Source: Sedimenticola sp.
GTDB taxonomy: Bacteria; Pseudomonadota; Gammaproteobacteria; Chromatiales; Chromatiaceae
Direction of reading: 5' to 3'
DNA: 64,000 nucleotides
Assembly (NCBI GenBank): GCA_027068915.1
Contig: JAMOLT010000061.1
Location: 62,001-126,000, forward strand
Positions 12,864-62,212 of this stretch are shown here, piece after piece (the first letter of the stretch is position 1; every line of letters begins with the position of its first letter). Below the pieces are notes generated by a model. The model was given only the letters and a program-made list of their open reading frames with translations, was not told the origin of the DNA and made no database searches. The position numbers and the translations under genes are program-made.

Positions 12864-12937
12864 TGGAGGCTGAGCCCGGAATCGAACCGAGGTCCACGGC
12901 TTTGCAGGCCGCTGCATAACCACTCTGCCACTCAGCC
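12864..12937 (-). tRNA. tRNA-Cys (anticodon GCA)
   Basis: The minus strand gives a 74-nt tRNA with acceptor GGCTGAG/CTCAGCC, anticodon loop CTGCAAA, T-arm GGTTCGATTCC and an encoded CCA at 12864-12866. It corresponds to cysT in the E. coli glyW-cysT-leuZ group. Confidence 0.97.
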
Positions 12938-12970
12938 ATTGAGTGTAACAGCTTCATTGCTGTCAAAACG

Positions 12971-12995
12971 AAAAACCCCGCCGGGCTGCGGGGTT
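12971..12995 (-). terminator. Hairpin with T-run between tRNA-Gly and tRNA-Cys
   Basis: On the minus strand AACCCCG pairs with CGGGGTT (12989-12995 with 12974-12980), followed by five T and then CGTTTTG. It has the form of an intrinsic terminator placed between two tRNA genes that are co-transcribed in E. coli, so it may act as a partial terminator or RNA-processing signal. Confidence 0.65.
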
Positions 12996-13006
12996 GATCG
13001 AAAATC

Positions 13007-13082
13007 TGGAGCGGGAAACGAGATTCGAACTCGCGACCCCAACCTTGGCAAGGTTGTGCTCTACCAGCTGAGCTATTCCCGC
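13007..13082 (-). tRNA. tRNA-Gly (anticodon GCC)
   Basis: The minus strand folds into a 76-nt tRNA with acceptor GCGGGAA/TTCCCGC, D-arm AGCTCAGCTGGTAGAGC, anticodon loop TTGCCAA, T-arm AGTTCGAATCT and CCA at 13007-13009. It corresponds to glyW, directly downstream of pgsA as in E. coli. Confidence 0.97.
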
Positions 13083-16988: not shown

Positions 16989-17387
16989 GTGGCCACTGAT
17001 CAAGACAACCCCGCCAGCAGACTTCGCCCCTTTGCCGGGGCAACTTTCCATATCACCATCAAGGGGGACTGCATGGCGCCTGCGCTGGGTAACGGTCAGC
17101 TGGCGCCAGTGCGAGAATCATTTCTGTATGTGCCTGGCGATATCATTGTCTTTGAAGCTGATTTCGGACAAATGTTTGCCCACAGACTGCTCGGATACTA
17201 TCTTCGCCGGGGTGAACTCCACTTTCTCACCCAGGCCGACAATGCATCAGACGTTGACAGAGGGATCTCCAGACAACAAATCATCGGAAAAATCCAATGC
17301 CCTGTCACCTTCAAAAAGCGCCTGTTTAGCCTAATGCGATTTCTGCAATATATCTATAAGATACTGATAATTCGTGAACTTCGCTGA
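16989..17387 (+). CDS. S24/S26-type peptidase homologue with Cys in the nucleophile position
   Basis: This 132-residue protein matches the catalytic fold shared by signal peptidase I and LexA-like peptidases. The nucleophile box reads IKGDCMAPAL, where the family has GDSMxP; the codon is TGC, so Ser is replaced by Cys. The general-base position is His (GDIIVFEADFG...MFAHRLLG), as in the Sec11/archaeal class, and LTQADNASD supplies the conserved acidic region. A Cys-His-Asp arrangement could still be proteolytic. A hydrophobic stretch near the C-terminus (FLQYIYKILII) may touch the membrane. Translation starts at GTG and the gene overlaps the kinase gene by 14 bases. In this operon it is the candidate leader peptidase for the small peptide at 19638. 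Confidence 0.75.
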   Translation: MATDQDNPASRLRPFAGATFHITIKGDCMAPALGNGQLAPVRESFLYVPGDIIVFEADFGQMFAHRLLGYYLRRGELHFLTQADNASDVDRGISRQQIIGKIQCPVTFKKRLFSLMRFLQYIYKILIIRELR

Positions 17388-18288
17388 AGAATTTTTGCGC
17401 CAAACAGGTGCCTTTCCTCATCGACGGCAAGGCACGCCCTGGGGGGAGGAACGCACGGCTATCGACTTTCTTGGCGGGCCTTATGTATTTGACGGGCTGA
17501 ACCAGATTCAGGTCAAGACCATCAGCCGCCGTTTCTCGGGTTTGGTCTGTGCTGCACCAGCTGAAAATTCCCCGGCCATCCACACGCATATCCGCAAGCT
17601 GCCAGAGGGGCATTTCAAAACCATTGACACCAGAGACTGGGAATACCGGCTGGATTTCGACTACCAGCAAAAATGCCTGCGCATTGCCGGCCTGCGGTTC
17701 GTTGCCCATGTGCAGCTGGAACCCCATATTGAAGCATGGATGTGGACGCCAGATGATGAAAATCTGATCGCCAACAGCGCATTCGAAAATATCTTTCGGG
17801 TTATCGTCGCATACCGATTACTGGCTCAGGGTGGCATGGTGCTGCACAGCGCCGGTCTTGCACTGGATAAAAAAGCCTGGTTATTTATCGGACGCTCCGG
17901 GGCCGGCAAGTCCACCATTTCCAGGCTGGGTGAAAATGCAGGCCTGACCATACTCAGCGACGATATGAACGCCATTGTTCTGCGGGATAAAAAATACCTG
18001 ACAGAACAGTTACCTTTTGCCGGAGAACATGGGCAAACTGCTCTCACCAGGGGAAAATTCTCTGTACAGGCAGTGTATTACCTGCAAAAATCAAAACAAA
18101 ACAGGCTGAAAGAAACACCAGCCGCCAAGCGACTGGCAGAATTGATGGTTTGCAGCCCATTCGTCAACTCCGACCCTTACCGATATGCTGTTTTGGCACA
18201 AAACCTTGCCGCCCTCAGAGATAAAACCAACGGTGGAAGCCTGGAATTCCACCTGGACGGCGGCTTTCAAACTCTCTTGAAAAGATAA
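17374..18288 (+). CDS. HprK-like serine kinase of a peptide-modification cluster
   Basis: This 304-residue protein has a C-terminal half like the HPr kinase/phosphorylase fold: MVLHSAGLALDKKAWLFIG leads into Walker A GRSGAGKST (residues 173-181), followed by LSDDMNAI, whose acidic pair would bind metal. The N-terminal 140 residues do not match the HprK N-domain. Homologues in some lasso-peptide clusters (ThcoK, PadeK) phosphorylate the C-terminal serine of the precursor peptide. The candidate precursor two genes downstream ends in Ser-Ser, which suits that role, but this is inference. The GTG start lies inside the end of the preceding gene. A phosphorelay role with HPr is unlikely because no PTS gene is nearby. 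Confidence 0.8.
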   Translation: MNFAEEFLRQTGAFPHRRQGTPWGEERTAIDFLGGPYVFDGLNQIQVKTISRRFSGLVCAAPAENSPAIHTHIRKLPEGHFKTIDTRDWEYRLDFDYQQKCLRIAGLRFVAHVQLEPHIEAWMWTPDDENLIANSAFENIFRVIVAYRLLAQGGMVLHSAGLALDKKAWLFIGRSGAGKSTISRLGENAGLTILSDDMNAIVLRDKKYLTEQLPFAGEHGQTALTRGKFSVQAVYYLQKSKQNRLKETPAAKRLAELMVCSPFVNSDPYRYAVLAQNLAALRDKTNGGSLEFHLDGGFQTLLKR

Positions 18289-18303
18289 GCCAAGGAAGCT
18301 CTT

Positions 18304-18582
18304 ATGCACGTAGAACCGGCCTCTGTATTGCAATTGAATTCCGATATTCGCCACACCCGGCTTACTGATGAAGGCATTATCCTGCGCCAGGACGATGGTG
18401 AGATTCTAGTAGTCAATGAAGTTGCTATCCGCTTCATTGAGCTGGTCGACGGCAACAGGAATTTGGATGAACTGGCTGATCTGCTGCTACAGGAATACGA
18501 GGTTGAACGTGATGCCCTGGTTACTGACCTTGCGGAATACACACATGAGTTGCTTGGTCAGGGTGTGCTGGTTCAGCGCTGA
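18304..18582 (+). CDS. PqqD-family peptide recognition protein (RRE)
   Basis: This 92-residue protein has the PqqD/RRE fold pattern: three N-terminal beta strands (HTRLTDEGIILRQDDGEILVVN) and then helices with the characteristic IRFIELVDGNRNLDELADLL and a C-terminal DLAEYTHELLGQGVLV. PqqD proteins bind the leader part of a ribosomally made peptide and hand it to a modifying enzyme, often a radical SAM protein. It lies 15 bases after the kinase gene and only three bases before the radical SAM gene, which fixes its context. Confidence 0.9.
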   Translation: MHVEPASVLQLNSDIRHTRLTDEGIILRQDDGEILVVNEVAIRFIELVDGNRNLDELADLLLQEYEVERDALVTDLAEYTHELLGQGVLVQR

Positions 18583-18585
18583 AGC

Positions 18586-19623
18586 ATGAGTGATTTTGCA
18601 GAAAAAATGCGCCAGACCTGGGAACAGAACATTCTGTTTTCCGTGTTGCTGGAACTTACCTATGGCTGCAATCTGAATTGTGCATTTTGCTATAACGACA
18701 AAACCCTGCAAGGAAAAACCATCAGCCGCAAACAGTATCTGGCGCTTTTTCAGGATCTGCGCAACATGGGGGTTTTGAACCTGATTCTCAGCGGTGGCGA
18801 GCCCCTGGCTCACAAGGATTTTTTCTTTCTGGGGCGCCATGCCAGGGAAATGGGGTTTGCAATCAGAATCAAATCCAACGGCCATGCCCTGCACCCAACC
18901 ACGGCAAGGCGCCTGAAAGAAGAAGTGGATCCATTCATCATCGAAATCAGCATCCACGGCAGCTGCGCCAATACCCATGACAGACAGACAAGGGTGCAAG
19001 GCAGTTTCAGGCAACTGATCAAGAACCTGCACACCCTGAAGGCGCTTAAGCTTCGATTTCAGCTCAACAGTGTACTGACCTGCTGGAATGAAGATGAAAT
19101 CGCCGAAATGTACAGCCTGGCGGAGAAATTCGAAGTGCCGCTGAAGTTTGACAGCCAGGTCACGCCAAAGGACAACGGCGACCAATCACCACTGGAGCTG
19201 GCCCCTGGCGAGCGGGGCTTGCGCAATCTGCTCCACATCCAGCTTCAGTCCGCCCGGCAAACGCAGGAAGGAAAAACAGGAAATACCCCACAAACCCGAA
19301 CATACTGTGGCGCTGGCGCCTCCACCGTTGCCATCGACCCCGTTGGCAATGTATACCCCTGTGTACAGTGGCGGCAGGCTGTCGGTAATTTGCACAATCA
19401 GAACATACAGCAGATCTGGCAGAACAATGCCGCACTGGGCAGTATCCGCAAGACCAACGAACAGGCGCAGAAGAACATGCTTGAGCAGGGTGAGAAAGCC
19501 GCTCTTGGATCGTTTTGCCCCGGTATGGCAAACCTTGTCGGTGGCGATGCAGCAGCGATCTATCCTTCTGTGCATTTGCGCAGTAAACTACGCAAAGACC
19601 TTTTGAACAACACGGGCAGGTAA
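18586..19623 (+). CDS. Radical SAM/SPASM-like peptide-modifying enzyme
   Basis: This 345-residue enzyme has the radical SAM motif CNLNCAFCY (Cys28, Cys32, Cys35) binding the 4Fe-4S cluster that cleaves S-adenosylmethionine, the GGE motif in LILSGGEPL, and a C-terminal cysteine set (YCGAG, NVYPCVQW, SFCPGM) typical of SPASM or twitch domains that bind auxiliary clusters. It belongs to the PqqE/anaerobic sulfatase-maturase class. With a PqqD partner next to it and a 58-residue Cys-containing peptide after it, the likely job is to install a cross-link or thioether on that peptide. The reaction type cannot be read from the sequence. Confidence 0.92.
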   Translation: MSDFAEKMRQTWEQNILFSVLLELTYGCNLNCAFCYNDKTLQGKTISRKQYLALFQDLRNMGVLNLILSGGEPLAHKDFFFLGRHAREMGFAIRIKSNGHALHPTTARRLKEEVDPFIIEISIHGSCANTHDRQTRVQGSFRQLIKNLHTLKALKLRFQLNSVLTCWNEDEIAEMYSLAEKFEVPLKFDSQVTPKDNGDQSPLELAPGERGLRNLLHIQLQSARQTQEGKTGNTPQTRTYCGAGASTVAIDPVGNVYPCVQWRQAVGNLHNQNIQQIWQNNAALGSIRKTNEQAQKNMLEQGEKAALGSFCPGMANLVGGDAAAIYPSVHLRSKLRKDLLNNTGR

Positions 19624-19637
19624 TAGGCCAGGTGACG

Positions 19638-19814
19638 ATGAAAAACATAGAAACAGGCTCACAGGAACGAGCAGAAAAGGCCACTCCCAAAAAGCCTTAC
19701 GACAAGCCCAGCACCTTGAGCAGGGAGCCATTGGAAGCCATGGCAGTGGTATGTTCCGGCCCCACAGCGAAGGCTACTCCTTTCGGCTGCAATCTTGGTC
19801 CCATTTCATCCTGA
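19638..19814 (+). CDS. Candidate RiPP precursor peptide
   Basis: A 58-residue open frame follows the radical SAM gene after 14 bases, with AGGTGA before the ATG; an in-frame GTG at 19632 is less likely. The N-terminal half is charged and resembles a leader: KKPYDKPSTL (residues 18-27) recalls the YxxPxL leader motif bound by PqqD-type RREs. The C-terminal half is small-residue-rich with Cys39 and Cys51 (VVCSGP, FGCNLGPISS) and ends in two serines. No known family is claimed. Its position, size and composition fit the substrate of the four genes before it. The next gene is convergent, so the operon ends here. Confidence 0.75.
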   Translation: MKNIETGSQERAEKATPKKPYDKPSTLSREPLEAMAVVCSGPTAKATPFGCNLGPISS

Positions 19815-19865: not shown

Positions 19866-22800
19866 CTATTTCAGCGACAGCGTACAGGCTCCCGAACCCG
19901 CACTGAAACTCCCTCTCACACGAAATCCGCTTTTCAGTTCAATACCGGGGGCGCAGAAGCGTACGTTTATGCCGGCTTCCACTTCGGTATTTTCCGCTTC
20001 CAGGTAACTTGAGGCGGCACACTCACGATCCTGATCAAAAAGCTTGTCACTCAATTTTACCCTTCGCCCAACGCACTGCATGGCGCCGCCTGTTCCTACC
20101 TGTCCACCAGCAAGATCATTTGACTGATTGGAACTGGTGTTGATGATTCGTTGACTTTTCACTGCGCCGGGGCGAATTTTTACCGCCGGGTCACCCAGCA
20201 AGGTATAAACCTTTGGCATGTGGCTTACCGGATTGGAAGGAGCATACGCCTGCAGCGCAGCAACGATCGCATCTCCGAGCACCGGATGACCGGTAGTATA
20301 AACCGCCTGCAACAATGCGCGATTCAGCCCCACTGCACTGGCGTTTTGCGACAGGCCGGTAGGCGCCCACATGGCGATTGCACCTGCATCCGTACCCACC
20401 ACCAGCTGCTCACCCAGGCTATCCACGCCCGCAAGGGCGTGCCGGTTGACCACACAGCTCAATGCCGTCATTACCGGAGTTTGGGCGTTGGCGAGATCCG
20501 GCACATGGCCGGAAGTAAGAATCCCCTCCTCCGCCAGCCTGTCGATTCCACCATGTCCCAGATAATTCACCAGTCCCCTACCGTCATTCAGGGCCGCCAG
20601 CAGATCATCATGGGCCTTGCCGGGATTTGTGGCATCCAGATAAACGTCCTGAGCCGCAAGGAGGACAGCGGGCACTTCCGGCCGAAGAGTATTATTGCTG
20701 TCAGCGGGAAAATCTCCGGCCGTCGGGTCTGCATTGTCCGCCACCAATTGCACCAGCTGATCGGTAACCAGCGCCGATTCCCAGGCCTGCAGCTTGGCGA
20801 GATAGGCGAGTAGTTCCTGGTTGGTTCTGACCGGTATTCGGCCCACGGCCACCCGCGGCGCATTTCCGCGCATGGCGCCGTAGAGGTTGTCTGCTGCAAA
20901 AATGCCATCAGGGGTGCCGACGAATAGGGCCGGTACTTTATGGTCATCCCTTACTCCACCAAGCAAGTGACGGTGGTCATAGCTGCTGTCGCCAACCAGG
21001 GCCAGATAACGCGGCGCGACCAGCCAATGGTCACGAGCGTAGTCTATAAACCACCCAATGGCGGCCGGGTCTTCTACACCATGATTGAATGCAAGATAGA
21101 TTTCCTTCAGGGTCACCACCCTGGTGATCAGCCCGGAGCTGGCGCGATAATCCGCCAATGCCTGGGCGGCATCCTTCAGCTCCGCCGGGGCAACAACCAG
21201 ATAATCCGCCTGGTTCGCCGGTATGTTCAATTGCGGCTCGACATAACCTTGCAGCCATGCCGGCGCTTTTACGGCTCCATCCTCAACCAGGATGAAGCGC
21301 CCCTCGCCTCCACTGATAAAGCTTGCCCGGTAACCGCTACCGGAAGCTTCCAGGGAAATGTTCTCCATCAACACAGGCCGCCCGGGATTGTCGATACGCA
21401 GGATGCGCACCGCGGCGCCGCTCAGGCCGTCGATGGTCGCCACCGTATCGGTGCCGGTGTAAAAATACAAGGCGCCGTTTTGCACCACCAGGTTGCGTGG
21501 ATAACGAACATCAAAGCTGTTGAAATAGACCCAACTGACAACACCGGGAATATCCGGGTGAAGCAGCGTCAGCGTATTTTCACCCTCCCTGAGCACACCG
21601 GATGGCACTGCAAGCTGCGCTGTATGCGCGCGCTGCCCGTCCCAGTTCAGGTCGTCGATTTCAACACCATTGAGTTGCACATTTACCGCATGCTCTGTTT
21701 CCGAATACCCTTCCAGTTCCAGCGCCAGCTCTGCGGCGCCACCAGCGACACCGTGTAATTGAAAACTGTATTCAGCCTGCCGATAATCCGTAGGCGGGGT
21801 GGTGGTATTGTCTGTAAAATTGGCAAGCTCTCCCCAGAACCAGTAATCCCGGACAGCACGAACCAGTACAGGCTTCTTGTCCTGCTCAAAATGTTGCTCG
21901 GAAACAAAAGTCGCCAGTGATACAGATGCAGGATTTTCACCATCTTCCGCAGCCATGGCGCTTCCCGGGCCAATTTTCAGCAGCAGCACATTGTCCCGGG
22001 TGTAAATGCTGTCGATAGCCTCCGCATAGAAATAGAGACCAGCGCCATTGTCTGCGGGCAGCCAGGCGATTTCATTTCCACCCGATTGCAAAATCAGTTG
22101 GTGCTGCTGGATGTAGGTATTGATGGATGCTTCAGCCATGTTCAACCGCGTTGCAACTTCCGTGGCTGACAGATAATACAAACCTGTTTCGCGGATACCG
22201 ATGCGGATTCCATCCACAGCACCCGGAGGAGCTTCCGCCATGCCCGCAAACTGATCGCCCCCTGACGTCACTTTTGTAGCAACCGCAACCGTTTTTGCCG
22301 TCACGCTATAGGGTGGCCGGGCGGCACTTGTCTGAATCAATTCACCATCTGTTTCCAGAGTGACTTCATAAGGGCCGTGAATACGCTGATTGCCCTTGGA
22401 TTCCAGCTCAACAAGACGATACAGCAGGGTTTCACCCGGCGCAGCCTCATTGTCCACATAAGTGTATGCGCCCCCCTGGGGATCGGTAAGTCCGAGGCCG
22501 GGGAGAAGTCCGCCTCGATTCAACCGCTCCCACCCGCCGGAGCTCCTACGCTCCACATGGAAGCCGAGGGTGCCCACTTCCGATGCCGTATTCCAATGCA
22601 GCAAAACGCCACCGGCATGAGCTGAAGCGCCAAAATCTGTAACCACCGCCTGGGTCAGGGCTGGCCCGATGCGCAATTCGCACAGCCCGCCAGTAGTGAA
22701 GGGAGTGGTCGTCTCATCGTCGAAGCTGGCCCGGGTCGCGTTCGCGGAAGTGGCACCCGCAGTAACAATGGTAACGACATTCGGATCGGGCACGCTGATG

Positions 22801-24119
22801 TTGTAAGCCAACACAGCAGTCTGACCTGCCGCTACTGTGCCGGGATTCCAGGTCAAGGCGCCGCTGCCGCCCACTCCCGGTTCGACAGCCATGCTGCCAT
22901 GGGTGGGAAAGCCGACGCGTACACCACCATAAGTTACCGGAGATGGAACTACAGCATCCACCACGGCATTGGTGATATCGAAGGCTGTGGGGTTGATCAA
23001 GCGGATGGTGACAGTGAATTCGTTTGGATTTCCACCAGGGTCATTCTGGCGCACCCACTGGGCGAGATAGGGCTTGACCGGAGCGCCGACAGGATTGCCG
23101 GTGGTGCCTGTTCCAAGATAGGAGCGAAAAGCCCGCCCATCGTTCAGGGCGAAACGGCTGGCTGGCGGGGCGGCGCTCCCTCCGGCTTCCGGGTAAAAGA
23201 GCCAGTTCCCGTAGTTGGCTCCGGCAGTCAGGGAAATATTTGCTGTCCAGACGCCATAGTCTTCTGCGCTATCATCGCTGGACTCGAAAATCCGGCTGTC
23301 ATTCTGCCAGTTGCCATTCCCGGAAAGCCCAAACGCCGCCAGGGTACTGCCCTGCCGGGTGGTCAGGCTCAGGCCGCCATTGTTGTCAAAATCAAAATTC
23401 TGTTGCCCGATAAAACAGCCAGAAGTGACATAGGGATAATTGGTTGTGGATTGTGTCCCCCCGGAGATGCTCGGCCCCATGTTGCTGTTGTAATAAAACA
23501 CGTTGAGGCTGGAATTGCTGGAAGAATCATAAGCCCGCACACCCAGGCGGTTCACATCATTTCCTGTGGTCACCGCGCTGCTTTGGTCCACGCGGAACTC
23601 CCAATATCCTGGTGCAGGATTCAATACCGGACTTGCGCCCCATGTAGCCCAGTTGTTGTCGCACCCTGAGCAGCTTCCTGCTGCCAGCGAAGCATCAAAA
23701 CCAGGATGAATCGCACCTGTCGGATTGTGCAGGGTATAGCGAACAGCGGTATTGTAGCCACTCCTGCCGACATCATGATTGGGCCCGGCTCCAATATCGG
23801 CATCAAAAATGTCCACCTGCAATTCGCTGGTTCCCGGTGGCACTTCTATCCAATAGGAATAATAGGTATCCAACCCGGTGGCCCCGCCGGTGCATCCAGT
23901 GTTGTTGTTTGCAGAATAGGCATCACCAAAACTGCAATTGGCGCCGGCACCCTGGAGGGTGATCAAATCCGCCGGGCCCGTGCCGGTTGTGGCTGCAAAA
24001 CCCTGTTCAGCCGGGAGGAAGGCCAGCACCGCTCCCAGCAGCAAAAGGCCAGCCCAAAAACCATAGACCCCACAGAAGAGGCTTTCTCGATACGGCAGAG
24101 CAGAATGCAGATTTTTCAT
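19866..24119 (-). CDS. Secreted C25 (gingipain)-type cysteine peptidase
   Basis: This 1417-residue exported protein starts with a signal peptide after a basic N-terminus (GLLLLGAVLAFLPAEQGFA). The first third has DUF11/Ig-like adhesive features (NPTAFDITNAVVDAVVPSP), then an FN3-like strand region (LLHWNTASEVGTLGFHVER). The C25 domain (about residues 985-1330) contains YLALVGDSSYD, VAVGRIPVRT, the catalytic His in NYLGHGG and the catalytic Cys in LSCVVNR. The end, CAPGIELKSGFRVRG, resembles the C-terminus of the repeat protein at 51080-56113. In gingipains the same core sits behind a propeptide. The ATG at 24119 is used because it leads directly into the signal peptide. The substrate is unknown. 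Confidence 0.85.
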   Translation of the reverse strand: MKNLHSALPYRESLFCGVYGFWAGLLLLGAVLAFLPAEQGFAATTGTGPADLITLQGAGANCSFGDAYSANNNTGCTGGATGLDTYYSYWIEVPPGTSELQVDIFDADIGAGPNHDVGRSGYNTAVRYTLHNPTGAIHPGFDASLAAGSCSGCDNNWATWGASPVLNPAPGYWEFRVDQSSAVTTGNDVNRLGVRAYDSSSNSSLNVFYYNSNMGPSISGGTQSTTNYPYVTSGCFIGQQNFDFDNNGGLSLTTRQGSTLAAFGLSGNGNWQNDSRIFESSDDSAEDYGVWTANISLTAGANYGNWLFYPEAGGSAAPPASRFALNDGRAFRSYLGTGTTGNPVGAPVKPYLAQWVRQNDPGGNPNEFTVTIRLINPTAFDITNAVVDAVVPSPVTYGGVRVGFPTHGSMAVEPGVGGSGALTWNPGTVAAGQTAVLAYNISVPDPNVVTIVTAGATSANATRASFDDETTTPFTTGGLCELRIGPALTQAVVTDFGASAHAGGVLLHWNTASEVGTLGFHVERRSSGGWERLNRGGLLPGLGLTDPQGGAYTYVDNEAAPGETLLYRLVELESKGNQRIHGPYEVTLETDGELIQTSAARPPYSVTAKTVAVATKVTSGGDQFAGMAEAPPGAVDGIRIGIRETGLYYLSATEVATRLNMAEASINTYIQQHQLILQSGGNEIAWLPADNGAGLYFYAEAIDSIYTRDNVLLLKIGPGSAMAAEDGENPASVSLATFVSEQHFEQDKKPVLVRAVRDYWFWGELANFTDNTTTPPTDYRQAEYSFQLHGVAGGAAELALELEGYSETEHAVNVQLNGVEIDDLNWDGQRAHTAQLAVPSGVLREGENTLTLLHPDIPGVVSWVYFNSFDVRYPRNLVVQNGALYFYTGTDTVATIDGLSGAAVRILRIDNPGRPVLMENISLEASGSGYRASFISGGEGRFILVEDGAVKAPAWLQGYVEPQLNIPANQADYLVVAPAELKDAAQALADYRASSGLITRVVTLKEIYLAFNHGVEDPAAIGWFIDYARDHWLVAPRYLALVGDSSYDHRHLLGGVRDDHKVPALFVGTPDGIFAADNLYGAMRGNAPRVAVGRIPVRTNQELLAYLAKLQAWESALVTDQLVQLVADNADPTAGDFPADSNNTLRPEVPAVLLAAQDVYLDATNPGKAHDDLLAALNDGRGLVNYLGHGGIDRLAEEGILTSGHVPDLANAQTPVMTALSCVVNRHALAGVDSLGEQLVVGTDAGAIAMWAPTGLSQNASAVGLNRALLQAVYTTGHPVLGDAIVAALQAYAPSNPVSHMPKVYTLLGDPAVKIRPGAVKSQRIINTSSNQSNDLAGGQVGTGGAMQCVGRRVKLSDKLFDQDRECAASSYLEAENTEVEAGINVRFCAPGIELKSGFRVRGSFSAGSGACTLSLK

Positions 24120-24219
24120 GCGTGCAATTAGTCCTTCGGTGGCCCGGCAAGCAAGTGCAAGCATTTGAAATATAACGCCGTTTTTGACACATAATTCAAT
24201 GCAGTGTACACGTTTCAAT

Positions 24220-24230
24220 AATAACCCGGC
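24220..24230. repeat. Solo repeat end (AATAACCCGGC)
   Basis: This is a one-mismatch version of the TATTAACCCGGC end, in the gap between the C25 peptidase and ydcF genes. No partner end was found near it. Confidence 0.45.
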
Positions 24231-24279
24231 ATACCTTGCGGCGCAAATGATGCGCCAATGGCACGTGCTGGAAAACACC

Positions 24280-25050
24280 CTATGCGCGAAAGACAAACTC
24301 GACAAACATGCCCATATATTCCCTGATCGCTCTCGTTGACCCCGTCAGGGCTGCCGCACCAGGAAGCCAGTCAAGCACTGTTACCGGGGCTTCCACTACC
24401 TGATAGTCCGTTGCAGCAGGTACAATCTGTAATCCAAAGCGCGCAAACGCAAGGCTGGCTCTACGCATATGATAAGCCGAAGTCACCAACAGTATTTTCT
24501 TTATCGCACGCGCCTGCAGCATACCTGACGAGTACTCGGCGTTCTGCCAGGTATTGCGGCTCGCCTCTTCCAGCACCATGGCTTCATCAGGAATGCCCAG
24601 AGCCAGCAGAATCTTTTTCATGGATACCGCTTCTGGCTCGAAACCCGGTGCATTACCTCCGGTCAGCAGAAGAATGGGAGCTTTGCCCGCCTTATACAGG
24701 GCTGCCGCGTGCAACAGACGGTCTACATTGCCGGAAAGATCCGGCACACCAGTTCCGGGCACGACACCCCTGGTCATGCCACCCAGCAAAACGATGGCAT
24801 CCGCTTTCGGTGTCAAGGCTATGGATACGGGAGGAAAGCGCTGCTCCAGTGTGCCTGCTATCCAGTTCGAGAACCGGGGGGTCGAACATACCCAAAGCGT
24901 TACCACAGCAATGCTCAACATTGTCAGCGCCGAAGATCTCTTTCCTCGCCAGATCAAAACCAGGGCCAGCAGGGAAAGAGCAATTGAAAACCCCAGGGGA
25001 TACAAAAACAGGGGCAGCAGCTTGGTCAATTGAAAGCTTATTTCTGACAT
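24280..25050 (-). CDS. YdcF/ElyC-family (DUF218) membrane protein
   Basis: This 256-residue protein has two N-terminal membrane helices (about 10-30 and 38-58) and a DUF218 domain with the family motifs AIVLLGGMTRG, LLLTGGNAPG, EEASRNTWQNA and LLVTSAYHMRRA. E. coli ElyC affects envelope and peptidoglycan maintenance, and YdcF binds S-adenosylmethionine; the reaction of this member is unknown. It lies upstream of and co-directional with the C25 peptidase gene, with 160 bases between them. Confidence 0.85.
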   Translation of the reverse strand: MSEISFQLTKLLPLFLYPLGFSIALSLLALVLIWRGKRSSALTMLSIAVVTLWVCSTPRFSNWIAGTLEQRFPPVSIALTPKADAIVLLGGMTRGVVPGTGVPDLSGNVDRLLHAAALYKAGKAPILLLTGGNAPGFEPEAVSMKKILLALGIPDEAMVLEEASRNTWQNAEYSSGMLQARAIKKILLVTSAYHMRRASLAFARFGLQIVPAATDYQVVEAPVTVLDWLPGAAALTGSTRAIREYMGMFVEFVFRA

Positions 25051-60411: not shown

Positions 60412-62212
60412 GGGCCTCTTCCGGATTTACGGCATCCCCTTTCTGTACAAATACGCCGGTTACGGTGCCACTGATGGGCGCCTGTACTTCGGTCTCCATC
60501 TTCATGGCTTCGGTGATCAGCACCGCCTGCCCCGCTTCGATGCTGTCGCCTTCCTTGACCAGCACCTCTACGATGCTTCCCGGCATGGAGGTGGTCACAT
60601 GTCCTTCCTTGGTAGCCTTGGGGCGACGTCCGGCGATAGTCCCCTGCACCGCACCCTCGGTACCGCCGGTAAGCACGATTTCGTCCAGCGTCTCCACCAC
60701 GGCTTCTTCGGGCACACCGTCTACGGTCATGTAGAAATGCCTTTCCGGCTGCCCCTTGTGCCCGGCGCCGGTCATCTTGATATGGTAGGTTTCGCCATGC
60801 AACACAATATTGAATTCCGTTGGCGCCCGCTCCTGGGGGCCGTCACCGGGAGGTGGCTCCAGTGGTTCAGGCTGCAAAGTTCCTGCCGCACGCTGCTCCA
60901 GAAACTGCCGGCCAATTTCGGGAAACATGGCGTAGGACAACACGTCTTCATCCGACTGAGCCAGATCGCCGATTTCCTTGCGCAGCTGATCCAGCTCCGG
61001 CGTAATCAGATCGGCCGGGCGCACTTCGATCACTTCCTGATCACCCACGGCCTTGCGTCGCAGCTTCTTATCCACTTCGCCAGGCGCCTTGCCGTAACCG
61101 CCCTGAAGATAAATCTTTACTTCATTGGTGATGGTTTCATAGCGTTTTCCAGTAAGCACGTTCAGCACCGCCTGGGTGCCGACAATCTGCGAAGTTGGGG
61201 TAACCAGGGGCGGATATCCCAGATCCTTGCGCACCCGGGGGATCTCCTCCATGACTTCCGTCATGCGTCCCAGGGCATTCTGTTCCTTGAGTTGATTCGC
61301 CAGATTGGAGATCATGCCGCCAGGAATCTGGTTGACCTGAACCCGGGTATCCACACCGGTAAACTCACTTTCAAATTGGTGGTATTTCTTGCGCACTTCG
61401 TAGAAGTACATGCCGATATCCTGAAGCAGCTCCAGATCCAGTCCAGTGTCATACGGCGTATTCTTCAGGCCGGCCACCAGGGACTCTGTAGGTGGGTGAC
61501 TGGTGCCGCCGGCCCAGGAAGAAATCGCCGTATCCACCCGGTCACAACCATTCTCTATGGCTTTCAGATGACACATTTCCGCCAATCCGGAAGTGGCATG
61601 GGAATGGAGCTGCAGGGGAAGATCCACCGCATCCTTCAACGCCTTGACCAGCTCCTCCGTAGCAAAGGGGGTCAGCAGACCCGCCATGTCCTTGATGCAT
61701 AGGCTGTCGCAGCCCATATCTTCCAGGCCCTTGGCCATTTTCACAAAACCGGCGGTGTCATGCACCGGACTGACGGTATAGCAAATCGTGCCCTGGGCAT
61801 GCTTGCCCGCTTCTTTGGTGGCTTCGATAGCGGTGCGCAGGTTGCGAATATCATTCAGCGCATCGAAGATGCGGAATACATCCATGCCCTGCTCTGCAGC
61901 CTTGATAACAAAAGCCTTTACCACATCATCTGCGTAATGCCGGTAGCCCAGCAGGTTCTGCCCACGCAGCAGCATTTGCAGTTTGGTGTTGGGCAGGGCC
62001 TCCCGCAACTTTCTCAGGCGCTCCCAGGGATCTTCCTTGAGGAATCGCAGGCAGGCGTCATAGGTGGCTCCTCCCCAGCACTCCAGCGACCAGTAGCCTA
62101 CGCGGTCCAACCTCTCACAGGCAGGCAGCATATCTTCGGTACGCATGCGGGTAGCAATAAGGGACTGATGCGCATCACGCAGAATGACATCGGTAATTTG
62201 TATTTTTGACAT
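60392..62212 (-). CDS. pycB: Pyruvate carboxylase subunit B (biotin-containing carboxyltransferase)
   Basis: This 606-residue protein has a DRE-TIM carboxyltransferase domain (VILRDAHQSLIATRMR, ECWGGATYDAC, GHAQ-type KDMAGLL and LHSHATSG), a conserved linker with RAP-like KAPGEVDKKL, and a C-terminal biotinyl domain with the biotin lysine in TEAMKMETEV. The same architecture occurs in OadA of sodium pumps, but no membrane OadB or OadG gene is present and a biotin carboxylase gene is immediately upstream. Two-subunit pyruvate carboxylase is therefore the better call; it makes oxaloacetate from pyruvate and bicarbonate. Confidence 0.88.
   Translation of the reverse strand: MSKIQITDVILRDAHQSLIATRMRTEDMLPACERLDRVGYWSLECWGGATYDACLRFLKEDPWERLRKLREALPNTKLQMLLRGQNLLGYRHYADDVVKAFVIKAAEQGMDVFRIFDALNDIRNLRTAIEATKEAGKHAQGTICYTVSPVHDTAGFVKMAKGLEDMGCDSLCIKDMAGLLTPFATEELVKALKDAVDLPLQLHSHATSGLAEMCHLKAIENGCDRVDTAISSWAGGTSHPPTESLVAGLKNTPYDTGLDLELLQDIGMYFYEVRKKYHQFESEFTGVDTRVQVNQIPGGMISNLANQLKEQNALGRMTEVMEEIPRVRKDLGYPPLVTPTSQIVGTQAVLNVLTGKRYETITNEVKIYLQGGYGKAPGEVDKKLRRKAVGDQEVIEVRPADLITPELDQLRKEIGDLAQSDEDVLSYAMFPEIGRQFLEQRAAGTLQPEPLEPPPGDGPQERAPTEFNIVLHGETYHIKMTGAGHKGQPERHFYMTVDGVPEEAVVETLDEIVLTGGTEGAVQGTIAGRRPKATKEGHVTTSMPGSIVEVLVKEGDSIEAGQAVLITEAMKMETEVQAPISGTVTGVFVQKGDAVNPEEALVEIEA

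Follow-up and report, generated by a model that had tools for sequence, protein, structure and literature searches.

A candidate six-gene RiPP system in Sedimenticola sp. with a radical SAM enzyme, an HprK-like kinase and a neighbouring gingipain-family protease

Introduction

Phosphorylated lasso peptides are ribosomally synthesized and post-translationally modified peptides (RiPPs) whose systems (paeninodin; PadeK, ThcoK, SyanK and PsmK; BsfK) combine a YxxP leader with a separate PqqD-like B1 protein (PMC9266682, PMC10368454), together with an HprK-like kinase that has a His-Lys-Asp-Asp signature and a conserved Ser at the C-terminus of the peptide. PadeK modifies the C-terminal Ser and requires its His, Lys and Asp-Asp residues, and the same source leaves the functions of phosphorylation and of the other extra lasso-peptide modifications still to be worked out (PMC9266682). 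The lasso-peptide phosphorylations reported earlier were all on C-terminal Ser, and BsfK acts on Ser3 (PMC10368454). An HPr kinase in lasso clusters is also mentioned in a genome-mining paper. Here, we describe a locus in Sedimenticola sp. (GCA_027068915.1, contig JAMOLT010000061.1, forward-strand positions 62,001 to 126,000, a stretch of 64,000 nucleotides that we call the window) in which an S24/S26-like protein, an HprK-like kinase, a PqqD-like protein, a radical S-adenosylmethionine (SAM) enzyme and a short precursor peptide are encoded side by side, next to a peptidase C25 of the gingipain family. This locus shares the features listed above with the phosphorylated lasso peptides and differs from them in that it also encodes a radical SAM enzyme and in that its peptide has two conserved Cys.

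A radical SAM enzyme with a reduced SPASM/twitch region, a Cys-containing core and a RiPP recognition element (RRE) are what the locus has in common with the sactipeptide and ranthipeptide maturases (SkfB, which is the sporulation killing factor maturase, StsB and 5wgg), whereas the Ser kinase and the conserved C-terminal Ser are added here; against the NCBIfam StsB model, the radical SAM protein of the window scored 109.5 bits vs a cut-off of 625. The SynChlorMet cassette (NCBIfam ScmC/D/E/F) is matched weakly by the kinase, PqqD and radical SAM proteins, each far below its cut-off (ScmC 29.9/125, ScmD 14.1/100, ScmE/F 79.9/400 and 71.0/400 bits), and an ScmC search of 143 genomes returned no match for the positive controls either, so that it allows no inference on distribution. 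We propose that the six genes form a RiPP system, with a probability of roughly 0.6, whose product would be a phosphorylated, probably thioether-linked peptide that has the C25 protease as its target or works together with it. Comparison of sequences establishes the gene set, the conservation of a Cys-Lys/Arg-Cys-Ser pattern in the peptide, the catalytic signatures and the genomic linkage to C25.

Results and Discussion

The five-gene set of the window had been observed in an earlier reading made from the letters of the DNA (the sequence-only reading), and this observation was confirmed. The plus strand of this 2.83-Mb genome encodes all five at the places and with the identities given for them: the S24/S26 (signal-peptidase-like) protein (16989..17387, GTG start, 132 aa), the HprK-like P-loop kinase (17374..18288, GTG start, 304 aa), the PqqD-like RRE (18304..18582, 92 aa), the radical SAM/SPASM maturase (18586..19623, 345 aa) and the precursor peptide (19638..19814, 58 aa). 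The kinase gene overlaps the S24/S26 gene, and the further gaps between the five genes are 3-15 bases. Of the loci found, the closest one that carries a name comes from a Sedimenticola sp. metagenome-assembled genome (MAG), with 95% identity in the radical SAM protein, in line with an origin in Gammaproteobacteria. Scans for promoter-like sites (1 vs 2.0 in shuffles) and terminator-like sites (7 vs 4.4 in shuffles, all on the minus strand) were not used.

The precursor peptide of the window reads MKNIETGSQERAEKATPKKPYDKPSTLSREPLEAMAVVCSGPTAKATPFGCNLGPISS, with the 58 residues, the KKPYDKPSTL motif, the two Cys (Cys39 and Cys51) and the Ser57-Ser58 end that the sequence-only reading had described; the leader carries Y21xxP24...E30xxE33xxA36 and the core is VVC39SGPTAK45ATPFGC51NLGPISS58. 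Five close relatives hold the peptide beside the same genes at 69-97% identity, for which reason a chance open reading frame (ORF) was rejected as its identity. In a 29-row precursor alignment, the leader has Y/W-x-x-P and, at constant distances without gaps, a pair of Glu and an Ala; P24, E30, E33, A36 and C39 are invariant in 29/29 rows, and the terminal Ser is accompanied by no other invariant Ser or Thr. W/Y-type xxP motifs are recognition sites for several RREs, PqqD and lasso ones included (PMC12710340). Both marks of an RRE-dependent RiPP, a short precursor with a W/Y-xx-P leader and a PqqD-like recognition protein, are thus found in the locus. A peptide profile run on 10 module-bearing genomes found a single place in each of seven and none in three; the seven were partly sure to match, since the profile had been built in part from their peptides, and the informative part is the lack of a second place in any genome. 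The peptide lies directly beside the module in six of the seven and ~4 kb from the kinase in the other (G064).

Conservation of the C-terminus was counted over 70 distinct peptide ends, drawn from lists that partly repeat one another (88 entries in all) and with related species among them: 65 end in Ser and one each in Thr, Phe, Gln, Val and Ala, compared with a baseline of 24 Ser ends in 267 ORFs of at least 400 aa from the related loci. The whole-peptide profile (A4) includes the end being counted, and profiles A1 and A4 include sequences from some of the genomes on which they were run. To avoid this bias, the 247 genomes sampled from a second phylum, which we take to be Acidobacteriota, were searched again with a profile of the leader that does not contain the end, and its 54 places, in 43 of the genomes, agree with the first count. 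Fifty-one peptides could be read to the stop codon (48 Ser, 1 Thr, 1 Phe and 1 Gln); one place was cut by a contig end, and two (in G757 and G774) lack Cys-K-Cys and were rejected as chance matches.

The pattern Cys-[Lys/Arg]-Cys is present in 66 of the 70 distinct ends. Among the first 65 of these peptides the middle residue is Lys in 61 and Arg in 4, and A, G, S or T precedes it in 56/65 and follows it in 51/65; the successive gaps are mostly 1-8 and 4-7 residues long, with 5-8 residues left to the end. A box of the form [A/V/S/L/T/I]-x-Ala stands 1-3 residues ahead of a Cys in 63 of 66 scorable peptides.

Related loci were gathered by tblastn, motif and profile searches. All five genes were found together in L026, L027/L031 (one contig), L029, L030, L032, L034, L035, L037, L038, L039, L059, L060, L061 and L062, as well as in the second phylum (L096, L098, L099, L100 and L101), and in G089/L025 they are split over two contigs. 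The order S24-kinase-PqqD-radical SAM-peptide of the window is rearranged to peptide-kinase-PqqD-radical SAM-S24 in L037 and L038, and in L032 and L062 peptide-PqqD-radical SAM faces kinase-S24. The set is thereby found, with altered order and strand, both in other Gammaproteobacteria and in a distant phylum. Incomplete sets are L036, with kinase and peptide only, 4 kb apart, and L063, where PqqD and S24 were not found; in L033, L040 and L041 no peptide was found in the stretches examined, and L106, L107 and L110 of the second phylum have the kinase alone or kinase and PqqD. At E <=1e-12 the kinase is matched in 6 of 368 other genomes of the class sample, one of which (G425) is a weak match (6.7e-16) in a different kind of cluster, and in 77 of the 247 second-phylum genomes. 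Plasmids gave no match to the radical SAM protein at 1e-30 or to the kinase at 1e-12. Of the 44 second-phylum genomes having the peptide (E <=1e-4), 43 have the kinase; the sole one without a kinase match, G671, has a peptide ending in Phe, no C25 match and no module gene in 19.9 kb around the peptide, which may be an orphan or a chance match. A weak peptide match in one other genome of 397 Pseudomonadota (G867, 1.6e-5) lacks the pattern and was judged to be chance; it is kept among the 70 ends. Neither of the outcomes named in advance as speaking against the sequence-only interpretation, the lack of a conserved peptide in related operons or Cys and Ser positions that are not conserved, was found when checked, and that interpretation is therefore supported.

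In the window kinase, H158-G173-G176-G178-K179-S180-D196-D197 (G173xxGxGK179S180 and S195-D196-D197) is spaced identically throughout to the lasso-kinase motif of BsfK, H148-G163-G166-G168-K169-S170-D186-D187 (PMC10368454). H158, G173, G178, K179, D196 and D197 are invariant in 14/14 kinases of the family; the best names for the window protein are ScmC and HprK-related kinase A, and across the 14 kinases at E <=0.001 the ScmC model matches 12 and HprK_rel_A 11. The HprK-like assignment made in the sequence-only reading is thus borne out by the active-site signature, with no family cut-off passed. Two marks of a phosphorylated lasso peptide occur here, the HprK-like kinase bearing the His, the P-loop Lys and the Asp-Asp pair, and the Ser that ends the precursor. 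Since the motif is that of the lasso kinases and the precedents before BsfK are C-terminal Ser residues, Ser58 phosphorylation is the likely reaction, and we regard Ser58 as the probable site with good confidence. The idea that the kinase acts on another residue, the terminal Ser being kept for, e.g., C25 recognition or export, has a precedent in BsfK and its Ser3 (PMC10368454); it appears improbable, given that no other Ser or Thr is invariant in the 29-sequence alignment and that the only Thr-ended peptide (L134) lies beside radical SAM and PqqD genes in a genome (G662) that has a kinase.

The PqqD protein passes Pfam PF05402 (44.1 bits vs a cut-off of 23.4), and the radical SAM protein is above cut-off for both PF04055 (72.0 bits) and PF13186 (33.9 bits). 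All 15 of 15 proteins keep its C28xxxC32xxC35, the motif for the core cluster, as well as C241, C259 and C311; by their pattern, the latter three are a reduced SPASM/twitch arrangement, so that a radical SAM enzyme with an auxiliary cluster of the sactipeptide and ranthipeptide kind is present. Among solved radical SAM relatives (21 sequences matched) the best are SkfB and PqqE, with 5wgg behind two cytosylglucuronate decarboxylases. Chemistry of the thioether type at the core Cys is what we would somewhat favour, and the conserved Lys may take part in a cross-link. In the modules of L059 and L060, two PqqD-like genes follow one another, and the peptide is encoded on the other strand.

The S24/S26-like protein matches best to an archaeal signal peptidase model (E 4e-6) and resembles signal peptidase I and the S24-S26 peptidases in its nucleophile box and in a PGD box. 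The usual catalytic pair of signal peptidases is Ser/Lys; unlike these enzymes, the window protein has Cys-Met for Ser-Met, with Cys28 (GDCMAP) at the usual Ser site, and His-Arg for Lys-Arg, with His65 (AHRLLG) at the usual Lys site, so that neither a Ser/Lys nor a Ser/His pair is present. The box G-x-Cys-Met-x-Pro recurs in 22 of 24 sequences, the exceptions being L064 (Ser, in a different cluster) and L104 (box not found), and His-Arg replaces Lys-Arg in the aligned rows. A Cys/His peptidase that cuts after the Ala of the [small]-x-Ala box would explain both the Cys/His change and the box, and this protein is the proposed leader peptidase; we judge the chances of a leader cut after Ala36 to be about even.

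Downstream of the peptide and convergent to it at a distance of 51 bases lies a gene for a peptidase C25 (19866..24119, minus strand, ~1417 aa from an ATG at 24119; the listed ORF, 19866-24305, extends further). The encoded protein passes PF01364 with 223.4 bits vs a cut-off of 23, its catalytic domain spans residues 1035-1376 of the listed ORF, and its N-terminus is signal-peptide-like by inspection, which also served to choose the start. Four C25 homologues run against Pfam were all Peptidase C25 (183-223 bits). For the window protein, the closest solved structures in alignment are those of PorU (6za2) and of gingipain R (1cvr), and a catalytic domain with the His and Cys of the family is present, both residues being kept in 25/25 C25 proteins; unlike gingipains and PorU, the enzyme here stands beside a RiPP module.

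When ORFs of at least 70 aa were compared across 28 loci chosen for carrying the module, six families were common to at least 10 of them, namely the five genes and C25 (families common to fewer than 10 loci were annotated in part). A C25 homologue occurs in 25/28 loci, with none in the available stretch of L030, L097 and L105. For 22 of these 25 loci, peptide and C25 are both in the available stretch, within ~210 bases of each other in 21 and at 5.8 kb in L098; the gap is below 60 bases or a slight overlap in 14 of the 22 loci measured, often in the same direction, and C25 is upstream and codirectional in L028 (presumably a Thermoanaerobaculia MAG, of the second phylum), L032, L035, L036, L037, L038, L059, L062, L063, L095 and others. 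Among 35 genomes picked as module-bearing or related, C25 is present in 31 (no match in G173, G174, G379 and G671) and exactly once in 19, the window genome with its single match included. In these 19 genomes, C25 is on the contig of the peptide in 18, within ~2 kb in 13 of them, and on a different contig in G623. Binomial and hypergeometric figures computed in the analysis take no account of relatedness. The recurrence in 25/28 loci, the single-copy linkage and the short gaps to the peptide led us to reject a random neighbour, and a functional partnership of the peptide with C25 appears very probable from this genomic arrangement. The convergent ORF thus belongs to the system; the sequence-only reading, which stood in its remainder, had passed over it and over two further features, the conserved Lys/Arg flanked by the Cys of the peptide and the replacement of Ser/Lys with Cys/His in the S24/S26 protein.

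Under the proposed mechanism, the YxxP leader would be bound by the PqqD protein, which would present the precursor to the kinase and to the radical SAM enzyme; the HprK-like kinase would phosphorylate the C-terminal Ser58, and the radical SAM enzyme would modify the core, most likely by thioether bonds through Cys39 and/or Cys51. A cut after Ala36 of the [small]-x-Ala box by the signal-peptidase-like Cys/His protein would then release a 22-residue core, VV-Cys-x5-Lys-x5-Cys-x6-Ser(P). This product would be destined for the adjacent, apparently exported C25 protease, where it might occupy the active site, either inhibiting the enzyme or taking the part of a pro-region, or serve as a trigger substrate. 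Gingipains cleave after Arg or Lys, and a Lys/Arg between two Cys resembles the reactive loop of canonical inhibitors such as the Bowman-Birk loops. Because the Lys/Arg of the peptides, flanked mostly by small residues and placed between Cys, looks like such a reactive-site loop, binding at the C25 active site is proposed, as a tentative idea that falls well short of the confidence we place in the partnership itself; Lys/Arg specificity of the window C25 is putative. Bolder still, and rather unlikely, is a new RiPP class whose product, a covalently locked reactive-site loop phosphorylated at its C-terminus, would be a ribosomal, enzyme-built inhibitor (or pro-region) reserved for the gingipain-family protease encoded with it, and would owe its maturation to a signal-peptidase fold turned Cys/His peptidase.

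A number of observations weigh against the six-gene system as proposed. At the level of single proteins, the kinase and the S24/S26 protein fall below every curated family cut-off, the latter with 19.3 bits against Peptidase_S24 (PF00717) vs a cut-off of 23.3, and AlphaFold models of the two, built on shallow alignments of 5 and 3 sequences, were unusable, with predicted local distance difference test (pLDDT) scores of 34 and 44, respectively. In an alignment reading, the site for Arg specificity of gingipain R, which we take to be Asp163, appears to be Thr in the window C25. The C-[K/R]-C pattern is absent from 4 of the 70 ends, and G738 (L163, L205), in which kinases are present, has two peptide-like ORFs that end in Gln and Ala, the second without the Lys/Arg. 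At the level of linkage, the peptide is 7-11 kb from C25 in 5 of the 19 single-C25 genomes, and 7 of 20 second-phylum regions (L097, L102, L103, L105, L108, L112 and L114) have kinase, PqqD and radical SAM genes with the peptide not adjacent; six genomes of these seven regions have a peptide elsewhere and G807 (L102) has none. L111 has C25, peptide and kinase and no radical SAM or PqqD gene within 15 kb. Finally, the S24/S26 gene is found in only 7/20 second-phylum regions (weakly in L104), and another leader peptidase must therefore act elsewhere. As a separate observation, the L111 peptide retains C-K-C-Ser, and a second peptide of that genome adjoins a radical SAM gene (L158).

The strongest competitor to the six-gene system as proposed, although unlikely, is that the peptide is an ordinary RiPP, secreted as an antimicrobial or as a signal. 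C25 would then not be its target but the extracellular protease that processes or activates it, through cleavage at the conserved Lys/Arg or removal of the leader. A protease that is beside the precursor in 21/28 loci and exported-looking by inspection, the conserved Lys/Arg, and the leader peptidase gap left by the many loci that lack an S24/S26 gene are all consistent with this; the Lys/Arg, however, is within the Cys-Cys loop, away from the leader/core junction, and no transporter family is widely common, one ABC-ATPase group joining only 3/28 loci, of differing kinds. Less probable again is that C25 has the modified peptide as a firmly attached subunit or cofactor-like part, needed for its folding or anchoring, in the manner of the cross-linked gamma subunit of quinohemoprotein amine dehydrogenase. 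The adjacent, often codirectional genes, less than 60 bases apart or overlapping in 14/22 loci, would suit a subunit, and the variable core length and Cys spacing argue against it. A cyclase-less relative of the phosphorylated lasso peptides, a linear phosphopeptide with a minor radical SAM step, would account for the YxxP leader, PqqD, kinase and C-terminal Ser, all of which match paeninodin-type systems, and is very improbable, given that nearly every peptide keeps the two Cys and that most modules have a radical SAM gene. A plain lasso cluster was rejected: as the sequence-only reading had held, no lasso cyclase (Asn-synthetase-like) is evident by inspection near the window genes, nor is a B2 peptidase, and neither is among the families common to at least 10/28 loci, no dedicated lasso-cyclase model having been run genome-wide.

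Returning to the six-gene system as we propose it, no description of radical SAM chemistry together with HprK-type Ser phosphorylation on one RiPP, no full text on SynChlorMet and no report linking C25 or gingipains to radical SAM enzymes or RiPPs was found in the open-access full texts, with subscription journals mostly outside coverage. The claim of the sequence-only reading that the combination is unfamiliar holds to that extent and is tempered by the NCBIfam SynChlorMet models, which name a similar set of radical SAM, PqqD and HprK-like proteins. The parts are of known kinds, and the assembly and the protease partner are apparently undescribed within the open-access literature searched. 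The system would join radical SAM chemistry and HprK-type Ser phosphorylation and tie both to the gingipain protease family; C25 would provide a defined partner for a RiPP, and hence a direct assay, and a testable role is offered for phosphorylation of a C-terminal Ser.

Further features were observed around the C25 and kinase genes. A C-terminal C25 segment of ~80 residues with several Cys (window 19866-20100) is common to L026 and L029 and was not seen in the tails of more distant C25 proteins. In L095 (G576 C13), the C25-peptide pair is present twice in tandem, and the cores of the two peptides are almost identical. In L167 (G714) and L169 (G580), which are of a larger cluster type, the peptide is 9-11 kb from C25, and between them lie several genes whose starts resemble signal peptides, along with a sigma-factor-like gene. 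In both L105 and L113, a single PqqD gene is surrounded by three genes for HprK-like kinases and two for radical SAM enzymes, with a nucleoside diphosphate kinase gene beside the set (by Pfam in L105 and by similarity in L113), and L113 also has a C25 gene and a 55-residue ORF ending in Ser. Elsewhere in the window, tRNA-Cys and tRNA-Gly are encoded on the minus strand at 12864-13082, and the small ORFs overlapping them are probably spurious.

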